Assembly (NCBI GenBank): GCA_022844405.1
Contig: JALHLV010000013.1
Coordinates: 1-64,000 of the forward strand
Source: Sphingomonadales bacterium
GTDB taxonomy: Bacteria; Pseudomonadota; Alphaproteobacteria; SMXS01
DNA: 64,000 bases
Direction: 5' to 3'
Both the position numbers and the translations under genes were made by a program. A model generated the notes under the pieces. The model had not been told where the DNA came from and ran no database searches. It was given only the letters and a program-made list of their open reading frames with translations. The number at the start of each line of letters is the position of its first letter. Position 1 is the stretch's first letter. Shown piece after piece: positions 9,062 to 54,179 of the stretch.

Positions 9062-10962
9062 GCTGCCTCGAGGGGGGCGGCGCTGGCTGACCGCTGATTG
9101 CGGATGGCTTCCAGGACCAGCGGACCCAGGCCGACGCAGGCGATGCAGCCAGCCAGCCAGCCGGCCCAGGCCGCCGCGACATAGTGGCCCCGAGCGGCGA
9201 ACACGAGCATCCAGGCGGACTGCGTGACGATGAAGAAAAGCTCGACGAGCAGGTAGGGCACGCGAACATTCGGCTTGCGGGCGGACGTCGCGCGCCTGGC
9301 GCCGGGCGAGATGCGCGGCTGGCCTTGCGCCGCCGACACGGCGGCCGTCTTCGGGGTGCGCTCGAACTCCGCATGCATCGGCCCGAACAGGCCTTCCAGG
9401 AACGCGCACACATGGTGCGGCAGCATGCCGGCGTTGATGAACAGGTAGGGGAACACACGCAAGAATCTGCGTACCCGTCCCGACCCGACATCAGCCCGGT
9501 TCGCATAGGTCCGGCGCGTCTCGATCGTTGCAAGCAACGTCGCGACGAGCGCGAAGATCGACGGCGGCAGGAAGTAGATCATCGATCCCACGACCTCGTC
9601 GGAGCTGCCGAACCAAAGGCCATGGGTGATCAGAAACGGGAAGATGGTGATCCATGAGGCCCACAGCGGCCATTGCCAGGAAATGCCCATGAAGTAGGTC
9701 AGGTAGATCTTGGTGAGCCACGGTCTGCGGTAATTGAAAAGCAGCGTCCCCATGTGCAATCGCTGAAGCTGCGCCCAACCCTGTGTCCAGCGTTTCTGCT
9801 GGAGGCGATAGGCGGCAAACGTCTGGGGCAGTTCCGCCGGCGCCACGACCTCCTTGACGAAACGGGTCTGGTAGCCGGCGAAGAGCACGCGCATGCTGAG
9901 TTCGCAGTCTTCGACGAGGCTCGCGGAACGCCATCCGCCGGCCGCCTGGATGGCCGAGGCCCGCCACACACCCGCGGTACCGGTAAAGTTGACGAAGTGG
10001 ATGACAGCCGACCGCCAGGACTTCTGAAGCGTGTGGTGGTCGTCCACCCAGAGCGCCTGCGCGGCGGTCAGCAGCGACTCGTCATCGTTGAGATGTCCCC
10101 ATTGCGCCTGGACGAGCGCCAGTTCAGGCTTGCCCGCGCCATCGACCTCGAAGAAGTGGGGCATGGCATTACGAAGAAAGTCGTGCGGCGGCAGGAAATC
10201 GGCATCGAAGATGGCGATGAACTCCGCGTCGGTGAGGTGCCGGCCGGCTTCCAGCGCGCCGGCCTTGTAGCCCGCGCGGTTGGCGCGGTGGATCCAGGCA
10301 CAGGGAATGCCGGTTTCCCGCGACACGTCGTCGCAGACACCCCGGACCATGTCCTGGATGGCCGGGTCGGTGGAATCGTCGAGCACCTGAATGGTCAGCC
10401 GTCCCTTCGGCCAGTCCAGCGCGGCCGCCGCCTCGATGATCCGCCGTGCGACGGCGGCTTCATTGAACATGGGAAGCTGCACACAAACGGCCGGCGTCTC
10501 CATCGGCAGGCGTCCGGGACTCCTGGGGGATCGCCCGCTCCAGATGTATCCAATGCGTTCCATCAGCCCAAACGACAGCCATAATATAATAAAGGCGAAT
10601 GGAACGTGAAGAATGGCGAGGATGATCCAGCCGACCGGTGATGCTCCGGCGGTTCCTGGTTGCCAACCTCCCAGCGTCATTGAAAACAAAACCAGCCAGA
10701 CCAGCGTCAGTGACGCCAGGTAGAGCCGCCAGTCGCCAGAAATCGACCGCGCTGGCCTGGTTTTCCGGGTGGCTTTGTCGACATGAAGATGTTTCTTCAG
10801 GCCCGTTTCGCCGGGGTTCGCGATCTCTATCGGCCCCGCGTTCACCCATGACGCGTCCCGCTGCATCTTCTGTTCGTCGTCATCGCTCGCTGGCGTGACG
10901 GGCGTTACGCGGTATCCCGGCGCCGATGGCCGGTGGTTCCGGCCGGTTCCCTGTGTCGACAT
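9055..10962 (-). CDS. Family 2 processive glycosyltransferase (cellulose/mannan synthase-like)
   Basis: An inner-membrane polysaccharide synthase of 635 residues. The start at 10962 has Shine-Dalgarno AAGGGAG eight bases upstream; earlier in-frame ATGs add only a low-complexity arginine/serine tail. The N-terminal ~70 residues are hydrophilic, then two membrane segments precede the GT2 domain. Catalytic signatures are all present: DDSTD (195-199), FDADF with DxD at 253-255, VEDCE (351-352) and QQKRW (388-392). Several C-terminal membrane helices follow. The core resembles CslA/mannan-type synthases more than BcsA, and no PilZ-type c-di-GMP binding motif is seen. It is translationally coupled to the YaiO-like exporter; the polymer made is not predictable here. 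Confidence 0.85.
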   Translation of the reverse strand: MSTQGTGRNHRPSAPGYRVTPVTPASDDDEQKMQRDASWVNAGPIEIANPGETGLKKHLHVDKATRKTRPARSISGDWRLYLASLTLVWLVLFSMTLGGWQPGTAGASPVGWIILAILHVPFAFIILWLSFGLMERIGYIWSGRSPRSPGRLPMETPAVCVQLPMFNEAAVARRIIEAAAALDWPKGRLTIQVLDDSTDPAIQDMVRGVCDDVSRETGIPCAWIHRANRAGYKAGALEAGRHLTDAEFIAIFDADFLPPHDFLRNAMPHFFEVDGAGKPELALVQAQWGHLNDDESLLTAAQALWVDDHHTLQKSWRSAVIHFVNFTGTAGVWRASAIQAAGGWRSASLVEDCELSMRVLFAGYQTRFVKEVVAPAELPQTFAAYRLQQKRWTQGWAQLQRLHMGTLLFNYRRPWLTKIYLTYFMGISWQWPLWASWITIFPFLITHGLWFGSSDEVVGSMIYFLPPSIFALVATLLATIETRRTYANRADVGSGRVRRFLRVFPYLFINAGMLPHHVCAFLEGLFGPMHAEFERTPKTAAVSAAQGQPRISPGARRATSARKPNVRVPYLLVELFFIVTQSAWMLVFAARGHYVAAAWAGWLAGCIACVGLGPLVLEAIRNQRSASAAPLEAAC

Positions 10963-11139
10963 CAGCGAACTCCCTTGCGTGCGGCGCGAGCTGTTCCTGC
11001 GCCTGGGTAGAGAACTCGAGGTCGGCCGGGGACGTGAACGACGCCTGAAATCCACATGAAAGGAGCATGAAAATCAGTGCTTGGGCGGCGAAGATCGGTA
11101 ACATGGCAGGTGACGAGATCCTCCTGGACTGAAGGTGCC

Positions 11140-12657
11140 ATGGGCGCACTCGGTTATCGAACCAAGCTGCTTGGGACCTTTGGGCTGCTGCTTCTGCTGG
11201 TCGCCGTGCCCGTGCTCGTCGCGTGGACCGCGGCCGAGCAGCTTGACCGCCTGAACGAGCGGTCGCGCATCGCGCATGAAGTGCTCGATGCGCACCTCAC
11301 GATCGCCGAGCTGGGCCAGCTGCTGCTTCGCACGGATCGCGGTGCCGAAGCTCTACCGACGCCCAGCGAGGACCTGCGCCGCCATGCGGAGGTCGAGGCG
11401 CAGTTCAGGCGGGCCCGCGCCGCGATCGTCGGTGAGATGGAGCTCATCGGAACCGGCGGCGCCGGCGAGGAACTGGAAGAACTCACACGCCTCGACGACA
11501 TCCGCTCGCGGCTTGACCGCGCCATCGCCGGCAACCGGAACACCGGCTGGCGCGACGTGGTCTTCGCCGCCGTGGACGAGGAGCGGCGCGAGCTGCGGCA
11601 GGCCGATGCCGCCGCGCGCAGCGCGTCGCGCGTCATGCGCCTGATGCTCGGGTCCTGTGCGTTCGGCGCGATCCTGATCGCGGCAGTCTTGCTGTATTTA
11701 TTCCAGCATTCGGTGCGCCTGCGTCTGAACCGTCTGATCGCGGGCATGCAGGCCCTGGCCACGGGCGATTTCGCGCACCGCATCAGGCTGGATGGCCAGG
11801 ACGAGTTCGCGGAGATGGCACAGGGTTTCGATCTCATGGCGGAGACGCTGCAGCGCCAAAACCAGGCGATCGCCGACGCGCGCGAGGCGCTGGAGGAAAC
11901 CGTCGCGGCGCGCACCAGCGCGCTGGAGGCCGCCAATGCACGGCTTGCCGAAGCCGGAGAGCGCCGGCGCCAGTTCCTCGCGGATATCAGCCATGAGCTT
12001 CGCACGCCACTGACGATCATCCGCGGCGAGGCGGAGGTTTCGCTGCGCGGTGTGGAGAAGCCGGCCGACACCTACCGGGAGGCGCTGTCGCGGATCGTGG
12101 ACCAGGCGCTCGGCATGGGTCGCCTGGTCGACGATCTGCTGTTCGTGGCGCGCACCGACGCCGGCGAACCCAGGCTCAACCTGCGGCCGCTCCTGCTCGC
12201 GCCGTTCCTCGAGCGCTGCGTGGCGAGCGTGCGGTCTTTCGTCGAGAGCGATGGCGGCGGCATCGACATGAATTTCGGCTGCGAGCCGAGCGTGATCGGC
12301 GACCCGGACCGGCTTCGCCAGCTGGTCAATATCCTGCTCGACAATGCGATCCGCTACTCGTCTGACGCGCCGCGCATCGCCGTGAGCCTGCTCGCGTCTC
12401 CGAACGGTGTGACGGTTCAGGTGAGCGATAATGGCATCGGCATCGCCGCCGCCGATCTCCCGCATATTTTCGATCGCTACCGCCGCGGCGAGCGGGCGGA
12501 ACGCAAGAACGGCGACGGCGTCGGGCTCGGCTTGCCGATGGCCAAGGCGATCGTCGAGGCGCATGGGGGCACCATCACTATCGAGAGTGTCGAAGATGTC
12601 GGGACGACCGTTTCGGTGTTTCTGCCGACCGTCAGCGGACTACGCGCCATAGCATGA
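11140..12657 (+). CDS. Sensor histidine kinase (HAMP, HisKA, HATPase)
   Basis: A 505-residue membrane sensor. The start at ATG 11140 has GAAGG four bases upstream. A first membrane helix spans about residues 10-30; the periplasmic segment of about 145 residues is mostly helical; a second helix lies at about 176-195, followed by HAMP. The phosphoacceptor is His285 in DISHELRTPLT. The ATP-binding domain has the N box NILLDNAIRY, DNGIG and GVGLGLPMAK. The stop overlaps the regulator start (ATGA). It is divergent from the polysaccharide synthase unit, 177 bp away, suggesting local control. The signal sensed is unknown. Confidence 0.92.
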   Translation: MGALGYRTKLLGTFGLLLLLVAVPVLVAWTAAEQLDRLNERSRIAHEVLDAHLTIAELGQLLLRTDRGAEALPTPSEDLRRHAEVEAQFRRARAAIVGEMELIGTGGAGEELEELTRLDDIRSRLDRAIAGNRNTGWRDVVFAAVDEERRELRQADAAARSASRVMRLMLGSCAFGAILIAAVLLYLFQHSVRLRLNRLIAGMQALATGDFAHRIRLDGQDEFAEMAQGFDLMAETLQRQNQAIADAREALEETVAARTSALEAANARLAEAGERRRQFLADISHELRTPLTIIRGEAEVSLRGVEKPADTYREALSRIVDQALGMGRLVDDLLFVARTDAGEPRLNLRPLLLAPFLERCVASVRSFVESDGGGIDMNFGCEPSVIGDPDRLRQLVNILLDNAIRYSSDAPRIAVSLLASPNGVTVQVSDNGIGIAAADLPHIFDRYRRGERAERKNGDGVGLGLPMAKAIVEAHGGTITIESVEDVGTTVSVFLPTVSGLRAIA

Positions 12658-13334
12658 AGATTCTGGTTGTCGAGGATGAGCCGCTCGTCGCGGATTTTCT
12701 CAGACGCGGCCTTGTGGCCGAGGGTCACGCCGTCACGCTCGCGGGCGATGGCGGCGAGGGGCATGCCTATGCCCTGGCCGGAGGCTTTGACGTCATACTG
12801 CTCGACGTCAGGCTGCCGATCCGCTCGGGCCTCGAGGTTTGCTCGGCGCTGCGCGGCGCCGGCGTAGCGACACCGATCCTGATGCTGACCGCGCTCGATG
12901 CGGTGGCCGACCGCGTCGAAGGGCTCAAGCGCGGCGCCGACGACTATCTGATCAAGCCCTATGCCTTCGAAGAGCTCATCGCGCGTATCCAGGCGCTGGC
13001 GCGGCGACATACGCGCGGCAGGATCGACCCGCGAGCCCGCCGCTATGTGCATGCGGATCTGACCCTGGACCGCGAAACCCTCGTCGTCACCCGCGGCCAG
13101 GCCATCATCGCGCTCACGGCCAGGGAGATCGGCATCCTGGAGATGCTGATCGTGCGTCCCGGCGTCGTCGTCTCGCGCGAGCGTATCCTCAGTTCCGTCT
13201 GGGGTGTACAGGTGGACCCGCTGACCAACATCATCGACGTCTATATCGGCCGGCTGCGCCGCAAGCTCGGCGAGCACGGCGCCCCGATCATCGAAACTGT
13301 CCGCGGCTTCGGGTATCGGCTGGTCGAGCCGTGA
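12654..13334 (+). CDS. OmpR-family response regulator
   Basis: A 226-residue transcription factor. The receiver domain has acidic residues Glu7/Asp8, phospho-acceptor Asp51 in LLDVRLP, then MLTALD and the lysine in LIKPYAFEEL. A winged-helix DNA-binding domain follows at about 125-224, ending in the expected IIDVYIGRLRRKL and VRGFGYRL. It is translationally coupled to the kinase gene upstream. Likely targets are the divergent glycosyltransferase/exporter promoter and its own promoter, but no binding repeat was clearly recognised in the 177-bp divergent region at 10963-11139. Confidence 0.94.
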   Translation: MKILVVEDEPLVADFLRRGLVAEGHAVTLAGDGGEGHAYALAGGFDVILLDVRLPIRSGLEVCSALRGAGVATPILMLTALDAVADRVEGLKRGADDYLIKPYAFEELIARIQALARRHTRGRIDPRARRYVHADLTLDRETLVVTRGQAIIALTAREIGILEMLIVRPGVVVSRERILSSVWGVQVDPLTNIIDVYIGRLRRKLGEHGAPIIETVRGFGYRLVEP

Positions 13335-13394
13335 CGCTTGCTCCACCGGGTGTGGAATCCTATCCAAACTTCCCTGATACGAGGCGATTATCCG

Positions 13395-13423
13395 TTGACA
13401 CCATTCGGGGGGTGCCGTACACG
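13395..13423 (+). promoter_or_regulatory. Promoter of tRNA-Asp
   Basis: A perfect TTGACA (13395-13400) is followed after 17 bp by TACACG (13418-13423), about 14 bp before the mature tRNA-Asp. The -35 box is strong and the -10 box weak. Confidence 0.6.
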
Positions 13424-13436
13424 GAGCCTCCCTTGC

Positions 13437-13513
13437 GGGGGTGTAGCTCAGTTGGTTAGAGCGTCGGCCTGTCACGCCGAAGGTCGCGGGTTCGAGTCCC
13501 GTCACTCTCGCCA
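13437..13513 (+). tRNA. tRNA-Asp (anticodon GUC)
   Basis: A 77-nt tRNA. Acceptor GGGGGTG pairs with CACTCTC using two G-U pairs; the discriminator is G and CCA is encoded. Anticodon stem TCGGC/GCCGA encloses CTGTCAC, giving GTC. The T arm is GCGGGTTCGAGTCCCGT. The weak acceptor stem is slightly unusual but all other positions are canonical. Confidence 0.93.
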
Positions 13514-13537
13514 TTTCTCTCCTGTACAGACCGGCGC

Positions 13538-13591
13538 AGCGTGGCGATCACGCCACGCGGCGGATCGACCGGAGCCCCGTCACACTCGCCA
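13538..13591 (+). pseudogene. Degenerate tRNA-Asp copy
   Basis: This stretch aligns with tRNA-Asp from the anticodon arm to CCA. It has AGCGT-GGC, TCACGCC, and a final 20 bases (13572-13591) matching the tRNA 3' end at 18 of 20 positions. Anticodon and T arms are no longer pairable and the 5' half is unrecognisable. It is either a decayed tandem copy or an attachment-site-like relic. Confidence 0.55.
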
Positions 13592-13634
13592 CTTTCCCAC
13601 AGTTCTGGCCTGCGAAAACACAGGTCCATTGGGT

Positions 13635-48544: not shown

Positions 48545-48572
48545 GAGCCTAACAGGATGGTCGAGTAACGAG

Positions 48573-50894
48573 ATGCGGCAGGTCTCCTGGAAGTCGTGGC
48601 TGCTCGCCGCAGCTCTGATGCTGATCCCGATCCTGGCGCAGCCGGCGCTCGCGCAGTCGGGCGGCATCGTTTCAGCCATCCGCGTCGAGGGCAACCAGCG
48701 CATCGAGCCGGACACGGTGCGGTCCTACCTGCTGGTCGCGCCCGGCGACCGCTACCAGCCCGAGGTGGTCGACCAGTCGCTGAAGCGGCTGTTCGGCACC
48801 GGCCTGTTCGCCGACGTGAGGATCACCCTGCAGGGCAGCACGCTGCTGGTGTCGGTGGTGGAGAACCCCATCGTCAACCGCATCGCCTTCGAGGGAAACA
48901 AGAAGCTCGAGGACGACAAGCTGCGCCAGGAGCTGCAGATCAAGCCGCGCACGGTGTTCACCCGCGCCAAGGTGCAGGCGGACCTGCAGCGTCTGATCGA
49001 ACTGTATCGCCGGTCCGGCCGCTTCGCCGCCACCGTCGAGCCCAAGATCATCGAGTTGCCGCAGAACCGCGTGAACCTGGTCTACGAGATCAGCGAGGGC
49101 GAAAAGACCACCGTCCGCCGCATCAACGTCATCGGCAACGAGAAGTTCTCGGACGGCGACCTGCGCGGCGAGGTGGCGACCAAGGAAGCCCGCTGGTGGC
49201 GCTTCCTGACGTCGAACGACACCTACGATCCCGACCGGCTGCTGTATGACCGCGAATTGCTGCGCCAGTACTACCTGCAGCGCGGCTTCGCCGACTTCCG
49301 CACCATCTCGGCCGTGGCCGAGCTGGGCCGCGACCGCGAGGATTTCTACATCACGATCACCCTGGAAGAGGGGCCGATCTACACGGTGGGCAAGGTCGCC
49401 GTCGAGTCCGAGATCGAGGACCTGGACCCCGCGCAGCTGACGCGGCTGGTGCTGACCGAGGAGGGCGAGACCTACAACGCCCAGGAGATCGAGAAGACCG
49501 TCGAGGCGATCACCGAGGCCGCCGGCAAGATCGGCTACGCCTTCGTCAACGTCCGGCCCAAGATCACCCGCGACAAGGAAACCAAGATCATCTCCATCAC
49601 CTATCGGCTGCTCGACGCGCCGCGGGTGTATGTGGAACGCGTCGACATCGTCGGCAACACGCGCACCCTGGACAAGGTGATTCGCCGCGAGTTCCGGCTG
49701 GTCGAGGGCGACGCCTTCAATACCGCCAAGCTGCGCCGCACCAAGACCCGCGTGAAGGGCCTCGGATACTTCGAGGAAAAGGGCGTGGAAATCGACCAGG
49801 CGCAGGGCTCCTCGCCCGACCGCGTGGTGCTGACCGCGACCGTGCAGGAGCAGTCGACCGGCGAGCTGTCGATCGGCGCGGGCGTATCGTCGTCGGAAAG
49901 CCTGATCGGCGAAATCTCGATCCGCGAGCGCAACCTGCTCGGCAAGGGCCAGGACCTGCGCCTGTCGCTGGCTGCGTCCAGCCGGCGGCAGCAGGTCGAC
50001 CTGGGCTTCACCGAGCCCTACTTCCTCGACCGGCCGCTGGCGGCGGGCTTCGACCTGTTCCACCGCAAGGTCGACTACAAGGAGAGCTCGTTCTCGCAGG
50101 GATCGAGCGGCGTCAACCTGCGCGCGGTGTTCCCGATCACCGAATACCTGTCCATGGGTATCCGCTACCAGTTCCGCTACGACACGGTCACCGACCGCAA
50201 CAACCTGGTGGAGTCGGTTTACATCGACGAAGGCAACTTCACGACGTCCTCGGTCGGCATGACGCTGGCCTACGACGTGCGCGACGACCGCATCAAGCCG
50301 ACGCGCGGCTTCAACATCGTGTTCTCGCAGGATGTCGCCGGCCTCGGCGGCAACACGCGCTACATGCGCAGCCGCCTGAACTACGACTGGTACTACCCGC
50401 TGCTGTTCATCGGCGAAGACTGGGTGGTCAACCTGTCGCTGGAGGCCGGCCACATCTTCGGCCTCGGCCAGGATATCCGCATCAACGAGCGCTACTTCCT
50501 CGGCGGCACCCGCCTGCGCGGCTTCGAGCAGGCCGGCGTCGGCGCCCGTTTGAGGGACAGCGAGGACGCGCTGGGCGGCAACACTTACTTCGCCGGCTCG
50601 GTGGAAGTGTTTATTCCCTTGGGTGCTGTCGAAGAGTTTGGTATTACAGCCTCCGCTTTCGTCGACTTCGGCACGCTCTACGGTGTCAACGGCGTGGTGA
50701 ACGGCCAGCTCTGCAACGATCAGGGCGATTGCGAGGTCGTGTTGGGCTCCGACAGCATCCGGATGTCGGCCGGTATCGGCTTCTCCTGGAAATCGCCTTT
50801 CGGACCCATTCGTTTCGACTTCGCCAAAGCCATCCGCAAAGAAAGCTTCGACCAAACCCAGTTCTTCCAATTCAACGTCGGGACAAGATTCTAA
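48573..50894 (+). CDS. bamA: Outer-membrane protein assembly factor BamA
   Basis: A 773-residue Omp85 protein. The start at 48573 gives a signal peptide with cleavage near QPALAQS. Five POTRA domains occupy about 30-430 (VEGNQR begins the first), followed by a 16-strand barrel with the LRGF element (GTRLRGFEQAG) and a terminal FNVGTRF. It inserts beta-barrel proteins. Its stop overlaps the skp start (TAATG). Confidence 0.96.
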   Translation: MRQVSWKSWLLAAALMLIPILAQPALAQSGGIVSAIRVEGNQRIEPDTVRSYLLVAPGDRYQPEVVDQSLKRLFGTGLFADVRITLQGSTLLVSVVENPIVNRIAFEGNKKLEDDKLRQELQIKPRTVFTRAKVQADLQRLIELYRRSGRFAATVEPKIIELPQNRVNLVYEISEGEKTTVRRINVIGNEKFSDGDLRGEVATKEARWWRFLTSNDTYDPDRLLYDRELLRQYYLQRGFADFRTISAVAELGRDREDFYITITLEEGPIYTVGKVAVESEIEDLDPAQLTRLVLTEEGETYNAQEIEKTVEAITEAAGKIGYAFVNVRPKITRDKETKIISITYRLLDAPRVYVERVDIVGNTRTLDKVIRREFRLVEGDAFNTAKLRRTKTRVKGLGYFEEKGVEIDQAQGSSPDRVVLTATVQEQSTGELSIGAGVSSSESLIGEISIRERNLLGKGQDLRLSLAASSRRQQVDLGFTEPYFLDRPLAAGFDLFHRKVDYKESSFSQGSSGVNLRAVFPITEYLSMGIRYQFRYDTVTDRNNLVESVYIDEGNFTTSSVGMTLAYDVRDDRIKPTRGFNIVFSQDVAGLGGNTRYMRSRLNYDWYYPLLFIGEDWVVNLSLEAGHIFGLGQDIRINERYFLGGTRLRGFEQAGVGARLRDSEDALGGNTYFAGSVEVFIPLGAVEEFGITASAFVDFGTLYGVNGVVNGQLCNDQGDCEVVLGSDSIRMSAGIGFSWKSPFGPIRFDFAKAIRKESFDQTQFFQFNVGTRF

Positions 50895-51478
50895 TGAAAA
50901 ACGGGAATATCGCACGCACCTGGCTGGCGGCCGCCGCTGCCCTGTTCGTGGTTGGTGCAGCCTCCTATGCCTCCGCCCAGGAAGCCCCTGGCGCGAAGAT
51001 CATCATCGTCGACCTGCGCGAGGTCCAGAAGTCCTCGCTGGCCGGCAAGGATTTCGCGCGGCAGGTCGAAACCCTGCGCGCCGACCTCGAGTCTGACAAG
51101 CAGAAGCTGGAGAAGCAGGCCGCCGACGCCGAGCAGGAGCTGAGCCGCCAGAAGGCCATCCTGAGCGACGCGGCGTTCGAGGAAAAGCGCAAGGCCGCTG
51201 CCCAGCAGTTCGCCGACAGCCGCAACAACCTGCAGGACAAGGCCAACCGCGTCCAGGTTGCCCTCGGCAACGCCGACCGTGACCTGCAGTCGGCGCTCAA
51301 CCCGGTGTACCAGGCGCTGCTGAGCAAGTACGGCGCGAATATGATCCTGGACCGGAGCGTCATCGTGATGACCGGCCAGGTGACCGACGTGACCCGCGAG
51401 GTCATCTCGCAGCTCGACCAGAAGATGCCGAGCATCAAGCTCAACATGCCGGCCGCCGGTTCGACGCCCAGGCAGTAA
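50894..51478 (+). CDS. skp: OmpH/Skp-family periplasmic chaperone
   Basis: A 194-residue exported protein. The signal peptide ends near ASYASAQE. The mature part begins IIIVDLREVQKSSLAGK and continues as a long coiled coil rich in K/E/Q/A, then a hydrophobic YQALLSKYGANMILDRS segment typical of the trimer base. It guards outer-membrane proteins on the way to BamA. It is followed by a terminator instead of the usual lpxD. Confidence 0.93.
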   Translation: MKNGNIARTWLAAAAALFVVGAASYASAQEAPGAKIIIVDLREVQKSSLAGKDFARQVETLRADLESDKQKLEKQAADAEQELSRQKAILSDAAFEEKRKAAAQQFADSRNNLQDKANRVQVALGNADRDLQSALNPVYQALLSKYGANMILDRSVIVMTGQVTDVTREVISQLDQKMPSIKLNMPAAGSTPRQ

Positions 51479-51505
51479 GCCTTTCCGGACGTCGAAGGTT
51501 TTCAG

Positions 51506-51544
51506 GTCCCCCGCGAGAGCGATCTCGCGGGGGACTTTCTCTTT
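51506..51544 (+). terminator. Rho-independent terminator after skp
   Basis: GTCCCCCGCGAGA (51506-51518) pairs perfectly with TCTCGCGGGGGAC (51523-51535), 13 bp around the GNRA tetraloop GCGA, followed by TTTCTCTTT. It separates the envelope operon from fabZ. Confidence 0.92.
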
Positions 51545-51600
51545 GGCGAACTTCTGGTATTAAAGGCCGCTGACGACGGAAGCTGGAGAGGACCCGCCGG

Positions 51601-52074
51601 ATGAACGCGATGATCGGGGAAAACATCGTCGAGACGTTCGATCTCGACCGCATCAAGCGCCTGATTCCCCACCGCTATCCCATGCTGCTGGTCGACCGCC
51701 TCCATATCGTCGAACGCGGCGAGAAGGCCGTCGGCATCAAGAACGTGACCGCCAACGAACCCTTCTTCCAGGGTCACTTCCCCGAAAAGGCGGTGATGCC
51801 GGGCGTGCTGATCATCGAGGCGCTGGCCCAGACCGCCGCGGTCCTTGCCCTCGACGTGCTGCTGACTGACGAGGAGGAGGCGCTCGTCTATCTGACCTCC
51901 GTCGAGAGCGCCAAGTTCCGCCAGCAGGTGGTTCCCGGCGATACGCTCTACCTCCACGTCCGCAAGGAAAAGGCCCGTTCCTATCTGTGGCGCCTCGCCG
52001 TGCAGGCAAAGGTCGACGGCAAGGTGGTGACCGAGGCGGTGCTGTCGGCGGTCATCGAGAAACGCCCGCGGTAG
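51601..52074 (+). CDS. fabZ: 3-hydroxyacyl-[ACP] dehydratase
   Basis: A 157-residue hot-dog-fold dehydratase of fatty acid elongation. Catalytic His59 lies in FFQGHFPEKAVMPG and Glu73 in GVLIIEALAQ. GGAGAGGA precedes ATG 51601. In relatives it lies between lpxD and lpxA; here neither neighbour is present. An extended -10 box TGGTATTAA at 51555-51563 suggests its own promoter after the skp terminator. Confidence 0.96.
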   Translation: MNAMIGENIVETFDLDRIKRLIPHRYPMLLVDRLHIVERGEKAVGIKNVTANEPFFQGHFPEKAVMPGVLIIEALAQTAAVLALDVLLTDEEEALVYLTSVESAKFRQQVVPGDTLYLHVRKEKARSYLWRLAVQAKVDGKVVTEAVLSAVIEKRPR

Positions 52075-52094
52075 AGCGAACACCGGAGGCGATA

Positions 52095-52613
52095 ATGCCG
52101 CCTGCCAGTCTTACCGATTCGATAATGGACACAGAAAAACTGTTGCTTCGATCACCGGAGCCGGGCGATGCACCGCTGCTTTTTGCCTTCCTTGGTGACC
52201 GCTCCGCGATGCGCTTCACCCAGGCGCGTTCGTCCCTTGAGGACTGCGTACACTATCTGGAGGTCCATGAATCCCAACGCGAGACAGTCGGTTGTGCACC
52301 ATGGACCATTATTGGCAAGGCGGAAGGTGAAATTGTCGGCTTCGGTGGGTTGTACGAAGATCCGTTCGATCCTGGCTGGGGCGTCGAACTCGCGTACTTT
52401 TTTAGGCCCGAAAGTTGGGGGAAGGGTTATGCGACTGAGCTAGCGGGCGCTTGCCTTGCCCACGCGAGACGCGAGCGGCGCTGGCCTACGATTTGTGCGT
52501 TCACGCACGCTGATAATAAAGCATCGTCAAGAGTCCTCGAGAAGGTTGGTTTTGCCCGTAGGCGCTATGTGTCGGAAATGGATCGCTGGCTTTACGGCTA
52601 CGATATCTCGTGA
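52095..52613 (+). CDS. GNAT-family N-acetyltransferase (RimJ/RimL type)
   Basis: A 172-residue protein. GGAGG stands five bases before ATG 52095. The fold is seen as LLLRSPEPGDAPLLFAFL, then GFGGLYEDPF and the acetyl-CoA loop region FRPESWGKGYATELAGACL, followed by NKASSRVLEKVGFARR. The substrate is unknown. The second half of the gene is more A/T-rich than neighbours, suggesting a later arrival. It occupies the place where lpxA-lpxI-lpxB normally lie. Confidence 0.88.
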   Translation: MPPASLTDSIMDTEKLLLRSPEPGDAPLLFAFLGDRSAMRFTQARSSLEDCVHYLEVHESQRETVGCAPWTIIGKAEGEIVGFGGLYEDPFDPGWGVELAYFFRPESWGKGYATELAGACLAHARRERRWPTICAFTHADNKASSRVLEKVGFARRRYVSEMDRWLYGYDIS

Positions 52614-52700
52614 GGCATGAAAAATGGTTCCTCACGGATTATCAGATTGATCAGGTGATCGGTCAGCTCACTCTCTAAAGTTCCTGGGGCAAAACATAAA

Positions 52701-52787
52701 CTCCACCGTGTCCCTGAGCCTGTCGAAGGGCCTTGCCTAAGCGTTTGTGCAGCGCCCTTCGACAGGCTCAGGGACACGGATATGGAG
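52701..52787. repeat. Long perfect inverted repeat (REP-like)
   Basis: The 26-base arm at 52706-52731 is perfectly inverted at 52754-52779, with a 22-nt loop. Outer arms CTCCA (52701-52705) and TGGAG (52783-52787) also pair, leaving a 3-nt bulge. The core CCCTGAGCCTGTCGAAGGGC is known as a widely dispersed repeat in proteobacterial genomes. It lies between convergent genes and could act as a bidirectional terminator. Confidence 0.9.
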
Positions 52788-52830
52788 TGATCTGCATCGA
52801 ACTCGGTTCGCGCCCATCCCCGACCCCACG

Positions 52831-52861
52831 AAAAAGGCGGCGCCCGAAGACGCCGCCTTTT
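52831..52861 (-). terminator. Rho-independent terminator after gltA
   Basis: AAAAGGCGGCG (52832-52842) pairs with CGCCGCCTTTT (52851-52861) with loop CCCGAAGA. Read on the minus strand it is a GC stem followed by TTTTT, 20 bases after the gltA stop. Confidence 0.88.
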
Positions 52862-52880
52862 CCTTAAACAGACTGACAGC

Positions 52881-54179
52881 CTATTTGCGCTTGACCATCG
52901 GCACGTAGGACCGCTGCACCGCGCCGGTGTAGAGCTGGCGCGGACGGCCGATCTTCTGCATCGGATCTTCGATCATCTCGTTCCACTGGGCGACCCAGCC
53001 GACGGTACGGGCGACGGCAAACAGCACGGTGAACATGCTGGTCGGAAAGCCCATGGCCCGCAGGATGATGCCCGAATAGAAGTCGACGTTGGGATACAGC
53101 TTCTTCTCGACGAAGTAGTCGTCCTCGAGCGCGATGCGCTCAAGCTCGATGGCCAGCTCCAGCAGGGGGTCGTCCTGCTTGCCCAGCGCGCCCAGCACCT
53201 CGTGGCAGGTCTCCTGCATCACCTTGGCGCGCGGGTCGTAGTTCTTGTAGACCCGGTGGCCGAAGCCCATCAGGCGGAAGTTGTCGTCCTTGTTCTTGGC
53301 CTTCTTGACGTACTCGGCGACGCGGTCCTTGGTGCCGATCTCCTGCAGCATCAGCAGCACGGCCTCGTTGGCGCCGCCATGGGCCGGACCCCACAGACAG
53401 GCGATGCCGGCGGCGATGCAGGCGAACGGGTTGGCGCCCGACGAGCCGGCGAGGCGTACGGTCGAGGTCGAGGCGTTCTGTTCGTGGTCGGCGTGCAGGG
53501 TGAAGATGCGGTCCATGGCGCGCGACATGATCGGGTCGATCGCATAGGGCTCGGCCGGCACCGCGAACATCATGTGCAGGAAATTCTCGGCATAGCCGAG
53601 GTCGTTGCGCGGGTAGACGAAGGGCTGGCCGGTCGAATATTTGTACGCCATCGCCGCGATGGTCGGCATCTTGGCGACCAGCCGGTGGGTCGCCACCATG
53701 CGCTGGTGCGGGTCGTTGATGTCGGTGCTGTCATGGTAGAACGCCGACAGGGCGCCGACGACGCCGCACATTACCGCCATCGGATGCGCGTCCCGGCGGA
53801 AGCCGCGGAAGAATTCGCGCAGCTGCTCGTGCACCATGGTGTGATAGGTGATGCCGCGCACGAACTTCTCGCGCTCGGCCTTGTTCGGCAGTTCGCCGTG
53901 CAACAGCAGGTAGCAGACTTCCTCGAAATCCGAGTAGCGCGCCAGTTCCTCGATCGGATAGCCGCGATAGAGCAGCACGCCCGCATCGCCGTCGATATAG
54001 GTGATCTTGGATTCGCAGCTCGCGGTCGAGGTGAAACCAGGGTCGTAGGTGAACATGTCCGTCGCCCCGTAGAGCTTGCGGATGTCGATCACCTTGGGAC
54101 CGACCGAACCCTCGATCACCGGCAAATCGATCGACTTCCCGCCGGCGCCGAGTTTCGCAATCTTCTCGCTTTCACCCAT
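52881..54179 (-). CDS. gltA: Citrate synthase
   Basis: A 432-residue type II citrate synthase, the entry enzyme of the TCA cycle. Conserved parts include [37 protein letters not shown] around a catalytic histidine, and [14 protein letters not shown] with the second histidine. The start at 54179 fits the family. The gene follows gltX by 41 bp; a small GCGCCGC/GCGGCGC hairpin lies between. In relatives lpxB precedes this pair's far end. Confidence 0.97.

Follow-up and report, generated by a model that had tools for sequence, protein, structure and literature searches.

Lipid A is often regarded as near-essential. The existence of LPS-free, sphingolipid-bearing sphingomonads is already established; Sphingomonas paucimobilis carries a glycosphingolipid instead of LPS (Kawasaki et al. 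1994, as cited in PMC11324152), and sphingolipids were described as apparently restricted to Sphingomonadales in a survey from 2020 that covered more than 1,000 alphaproteobacterial type strains (PMC7179689). Rhodothalassium salexigens, an alphaproteobacterium outside the Sphingomonadales, has been reported to be without LPS and to have sphingolipids and an spt gene (PMC11762602). Wolbachia and other Anaplasmataceae are alphaproteobacteria without Kdo2-lipid A genes (PMC3087551). For Caulobacter crescentus, the phosphosphingolipid locus is CC_1168-CC_1152 and transport of sphingolipids by second copies of LptFG has been proposed, the route by which bacterial sphingolipids reach the outer membrane being stated as not known (PMC11324152).

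Like the Sphingomonadales, the order to which our window belongs (the window is the whole analysed stretch of 64,000 nucleotides) has none of the lipid A genes tested. The two also share an SPT family and the presence of sphingolipid-type LptFG in the absence of the LPS-type pair. Family f13 agrees with this pattern in LptD, LptFG, WaaA and the pepA locus; its SPT scores 700 bits against the solved SPT 2x8u, from which we infer that f13 are sphingomonads. Unlike the Sphingomonadales, the window's order lies off the f13 lineage in a DnaE tree, and the SPTs of the two share only about 54% identity. R. salexigens, reported to be without LPS, resembles the predicted state of the window's order and also has an spt gene; it belongs by name to a different order.

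In gene content, the sphingolipid cluster of the window's genome resembles CC_1168-CC_1152 of Caulobacter, with aasR, cerR, acpR, spt, a lipid kinase, a flippase and LptF2/LptG2 types. Caulobacter makes LPS too and keeps lpx (it served as positive control for LpxB and LpxC), whereas the window's order is left with the second set only. The cluster is compact here, in contrast to the scattered sphingolipid genes of S. wittichii and Zymomonas (PMC11324152). The Anaplasmataceae have reduced intracellular genomes, compared with 3.8 Mb for the window's genome, and the small LpxB-negative genomes tested for both SPT and LptD mostly had no SPT-grade match and no LptD.

Gene order around fabZ

In the window, the genes run pyrH-uppS-cdsA-dxr-rseP-bamA-skp-fabZ-GNAT-gltA, and Pfam supports the identities and order of RseP, BamA, Skp/OmpH, FabZ, GNAT and GltA. 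The first-pass annotation had taken skp-lpxD-fabZ-lpxA-lpxI-lpxB, often followed by gltA, as the usual alphaproteobacterial order, and the same queries recovered this order through to gltA in LPS-making alphaproteobacteria used as positive controls (including Caenispirillum L003, Parvibaculum L012, Phenylobacterium L061, G018 and G049), Skp being too diverged for detection in some of the control loci. It had also described skp as followed by a terminator and fabZ with no lpxD, and fabZ as followed by a GNAT gene, an inverted repeat and gltA with no lpxA-lpxI-lpxB, all the neighbouring genes being kept. These descriptions were borne out by Pfam, folding and tblastn (Table 1). No remnant of lpxD, lpxA, lpxI or lpxB was detected near fabZ, the best tblastn match being a 16-residue stretch with an E-value of 0.09.

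Table 1. Coordinates of the fabZ locus (positions in the window) and of the sphingolipid cluster stretch
Feature	Position	Strand	Basis or remark
bamA (outer-membrane assembly), kept	48570..50894	+	Pfam Omp85 and POTRA
skp/ompH chaperone, kept	50894..51478	+	Pfam OmpH, 47 bits
lpxD site of LPS-making alphaproteobacteria, empty here	51479..51600	.	control synteny; tblastn finds no remnant
terminator-like hairpin 3' of skp	51504..51537	+	folding; relatives with hairpins at the same place
fabZ, 3-hydroxyacyl-ACP dehydratase, kept	51601..52074	+	Pfam FabA-like domain, 115 bits
lpxA-lpxI-lpxB site of LPS-making alphaproteobacteria; GNAT gene and inverted repeat only	52075..52880	.	control synteny, tblastn
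GNAT acetyltransferase gene	52095..52613	+	Pfam Acetyltransf_3, 112 bits
inverted repeat, two opposed CCCTTCGACAGGCTCAGGG copies	52712..52773	.	copies at 52712 and 52755
gltA (citrate synthase), bordering the lost lpx segment on the right	52881..54179	-	Pfam Citrate_synt, 483 bits
sphingolipid cluster stretch L110	G000:C16:36000-55900		SPT at C16:45365-46570

The gap between skp and fabZ measures 122 bp and contains a hairpin with a stem of 15 bp and a T-rich tail (z = -4.95); none of 200 shuffles folded equally well. Comparable hairpins stand 3' of skp in relatives. fabZ itself was detected in nine of the ten genomes of the order; it would have been kept because fatty acid elongation needs FabZ. 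Four relatives (G001, G003, G008 and G009) have skp-fabZ-gltA without a GNAT gene. Since the gene is missing at the same place in all four, its presence between fabZ and gltA in the window is probably the result of a later insertion. The CCCTTCGACAGGCTCAGGG inverted repeat separates the GNAT gene from gltA, and checks of other stretches from the order did not turn up its 12-base core.

At the level of the locus only, a collapsed fabZ-gltA arrangement without lpx was also seen in three named alphaproteobacterial MAGs (L002, L006 and L010). In a Rhodospirillales MAG (L007) the only match after fabZ is LpxI-like, at 10471, and in a Defluviicoccus MAG (L008) no lpx gene adjoins fabZ within 20 kb.

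Lipid A genes across the genomes

The window's genome, a 3.78-Mb draft in 41 contigs rated 100% complete, was searched together with nine others from its order, among them G003 (2 contigs, 100% complete). Lipid A loss was judged on LpxA, LpxB, LpxC, LpxD and WaaA. Whole-genome searches gave no match to LpxB or LpxC in the window's genome or in the nine others, and none to the Kdo transferase WaaA/KdtA in any of the ten. For LpxA and LpxD, the best scores in the window's genome were 32.7 bits (cut-off 231) and 25.9 bits (cut-off 242.5), respectively, which is hexapeptide-type background only. All ten genomes of the order fell far under these curated cut-offs, and all ten LPS+ controls passed them. 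LpxB is present in 334 of the 385 genomes sampled across the class. Searching the genome for LpxA, LpxB, LpxC and LpxD had been proposed in the first-pass annotation, and the outcome confirms, as far as gene content tells, that the loss of lpx from the fabZ locus is genome-wide in the order.

G036 had been considered as a lipid-A-less genome with WaaA; because its contig ends after lpxA, it was reassigned to the LPS+ group. Families f29, f80 and f93 have both LpxB+ and LpxB- members, as seen in the pairs G167 versus G037 (f29), G088/G202 versus G294 (f80) and G101 versus G210/G301 (f93). Families that mix lipid-A-less and lipid-A-bearing members in this way are useful for dating losses.

Sphingolipid genes and the Lpt exporter

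The SPT gene of the window's genome scored 625.8 bits with NF047599 (cut-off 500), the model with which it was checked, and its product aligned end to end with 2x8u, the best solved match, at 508 bits. The ceramide genes aasR-cerR-acpR-spt stand together (L110 positions 9366-13606). Adjoining spt are genes for a fatty acyl-AMP ligase (acyl-ACP synthetase), an SDR-type epimerase/reductase and an acyl carrier protein, and the cluster also holds a lipid kinase, CC_1160-like (DAGK_cat) by family search, LptF and LptG of the LptF2 and LptG2 types beside spt, a flippase-like protein and a fatty-acid hydroxylase. An ORF of 398 aa (L110:667-1863) has weak GNAT similarity and is conserved in other clusters; from its position, its length and that similarity we propose it as a candidate ceramide synthase gene (cerS).

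Genome-wide SPT searches were run with NF047600, an SPT model of another group. No genome passed its cut-off, and SPT grade was therefore taken from the gap in bit scores: matches of about 300-375 bits were counted as SPT-grade, ALAS/KBL-type background lying below about 285 bits. By this measure, every tested LpxB-negative genome above 2 Mb with a completeness of 90% or more had an SPT-grade match, compared to 3 of 14 LPS+ controls. LpxB-negative genomes without such a match were mostly small or incomplete. SPT-like genes 50-54% identical to that of the window's genome were also seen on large plasmids of Roseomonas (NZ_CP147881.1 and others) and of one Sphingomonas, and carriage on plasmids is a possible route of transfer.

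LptD was found in each of the order's ten genomes, as well as in most lipid-A-less families with SPT. In the LPS-making controls G010, G018 and G049, lptF-lptG lie between pepA and lptD. At this ancestral site of lptD, the order pepA-lptD-surA without lptF-lptG is found in the window's genome and four relatives, and likewise in lipid-A-less members of families f13, f38, f93 and f131; in G167, lptD-surA is kept and pepA was not found. In a tree of 88 LptF/LptG proteins, both subunits split into two groups. The first contains LPS+ genomes only and includes every lptD-linked pair. The second contains all proteins of the sampled lipid-A-less genomes together with the second copies of the LPS+ genomes G031 and G035, which stand on long branches. 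Taken together, the two tree groups and the disappearance of lptF-lptG from the pepA-lptD locus indicate that the predicted retained exporter of the order is LptD with sphingolipid-type LptFG.

The sphingolipid cluster and the retained LptD suggest that this exporter may now carry sphingolipid. In most of the ten genomes the spt-type LptFG pair is on the contig of spt, within about 6 kb of it, and in G003, G004, G005, G008 and G009 it is the only pair while LptD is kept. LptD could also have been retained for another substrate. A third kind of LptF/LptG pair was observed at L154 7000-14341 (G000:C12), and also in L156 and L157. Kept in the window's genome (G000) and in the relatives G001 and G002, it adjoins genes for an acyl carrier protein, a ketoacyl synthase, a glycosyltransferase and a GNAT-domain protein; the cluster is perhaps for another exported lipid, and its LptFG could feed LptD too. 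The complete 5.4-Mb genome of G074 (family f66), lipid-A-less and SPT+, gave no match to LptD or to LptF/LptG, and Lpt may therefore not be required for sphingolipid in every case; in G193, of the same family, both were found.

These observations bear on an explanation in which the cell makes sphingolipid and no lipid A, yet LptD and the alternative LptFG export something else, for example another glycolipid made by the contig C12 cluster, and the sphingolipid travels to the outer membrane by another route. The third pair with its lipid-synthesis neighbours and the example of G074 both speak for it. The five genomes that keep LptD with the spt-type LptFG as their only pair, and the closeness of that pair to spt, speak against it, and we consider this explanation unlikely.

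A probable LPS-free outer membrane and lineage history

By gene content, the order has the makings of an LPS-free outer membrane of sphingolipid type: the lipid A genes tested are absent, SPT is present, and BamA, Skp and LptD are kept. We consider it likely that the outer membrane is indeed free of LPS and ceramide-based on its outside, with export through the retained LptD and the alternative LptFG. The ancestor of the order would have lost lpxD and lpxA-lpxI-lpxB around fabZ, lpxC and waaA elsewhere, and, beside lptD, the lptF-lptG pair that serves as the LPS-type extractor at the inner membrane; present-day absence is what the searches show, and loss in the ancestor is the parsimonious reading of it. 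The outer membrane itself would persist, with BamA, Skp and LptD present, and a ceramide/phosphosphingolipid cluster that includes an LptF/LptG pair, its genes identified by homology, would stand in place of the lipid A genes. Synthesis of a ceramide-based lipid would take place at the inner membrane; the sphingolipid-type LptFG would extract it there and pass it to the retained LptD, and this sphingolipid would replace LPS in the outer leaflet.

The first-pass annotation had left a choice between an organism that makes no canonical LPS and one that has moved the pathway elsewhere, and of these the former is supported. Gene clusters do break up, which lends relocation with normal LPS some credence; with LpxB, LpxC and WaaA missing and LpxA and LpxD nowhere near their cut-offs in ten genomes, positive controls at hand, no intact lpxA, lpxD or lpxB anywhere in the genome and the LPS-type lptFG pair gone as well, relocation is therefore rejected as highly improbable. 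That lpx genes only seem missing through an assembly gap or an incomplete genome, as a draft of 41 contigs might allow and as the same artefact accounts for G036, can practically be dismissed, because the fabZ locus runs unbroken through to gltA within one contig and ten genomes agree, the 2-contig G003 among them.

In the DnaE tree, the window's order comes out as a clade with full support, placed among LPS+ lineages and apart from f13. A single lipid-A-less clade, partly named post hoc, was rejected on this tree (AU test, p 1.9e-5). Mapping of lipid A state gave 8 changes, or at least 7 with Defluviicoccus (L008) and the outgroup left open, a count that is rough because the tree comes from one gene and a quick search and many of its deep branches are weak. 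Membership of the Sphingomonadales was considered for the window's genome and rejected, its DnaE and SPT both being far from those of the sphingomonad-like f13; only 10 genomes in the collection belong to the order. Distant as it is in DnaE, f13 groups with the window's order in the LptF, LptG and SPT trees, a possible sign that the sphingolipid cluster was transferred.

A broader account, which we put forward with modest confidence, is that an older sphingolipid-specific LptFG, by plugging into the single LptD, would have made lipid A dispensable. Joint loss of lpx, waaA and the LPS-type lptFG would then have followed in several lineages, including this order, with skp-fabZ-gltA and pepA-lptD as the two scars common to them, and the Lpt bridge would be a sphingolipid exporter in alphaproteobacteria.

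Our results show that absence of lipid A genes together with sphingolipid genes occurs in a separate order and in several further families. To the sphingomonads already described they add another such order, paired loss scars at fabZ and lptD, and a sphingolipid-type LptFG retained with LptD; the novelty of the scars was judged on open-licence literature, and they may have been described elsewhere. Lineages that have LptD and only sphingolipid-type LptFG constitute a natural experiment on sphingolipid export with no LPS background.
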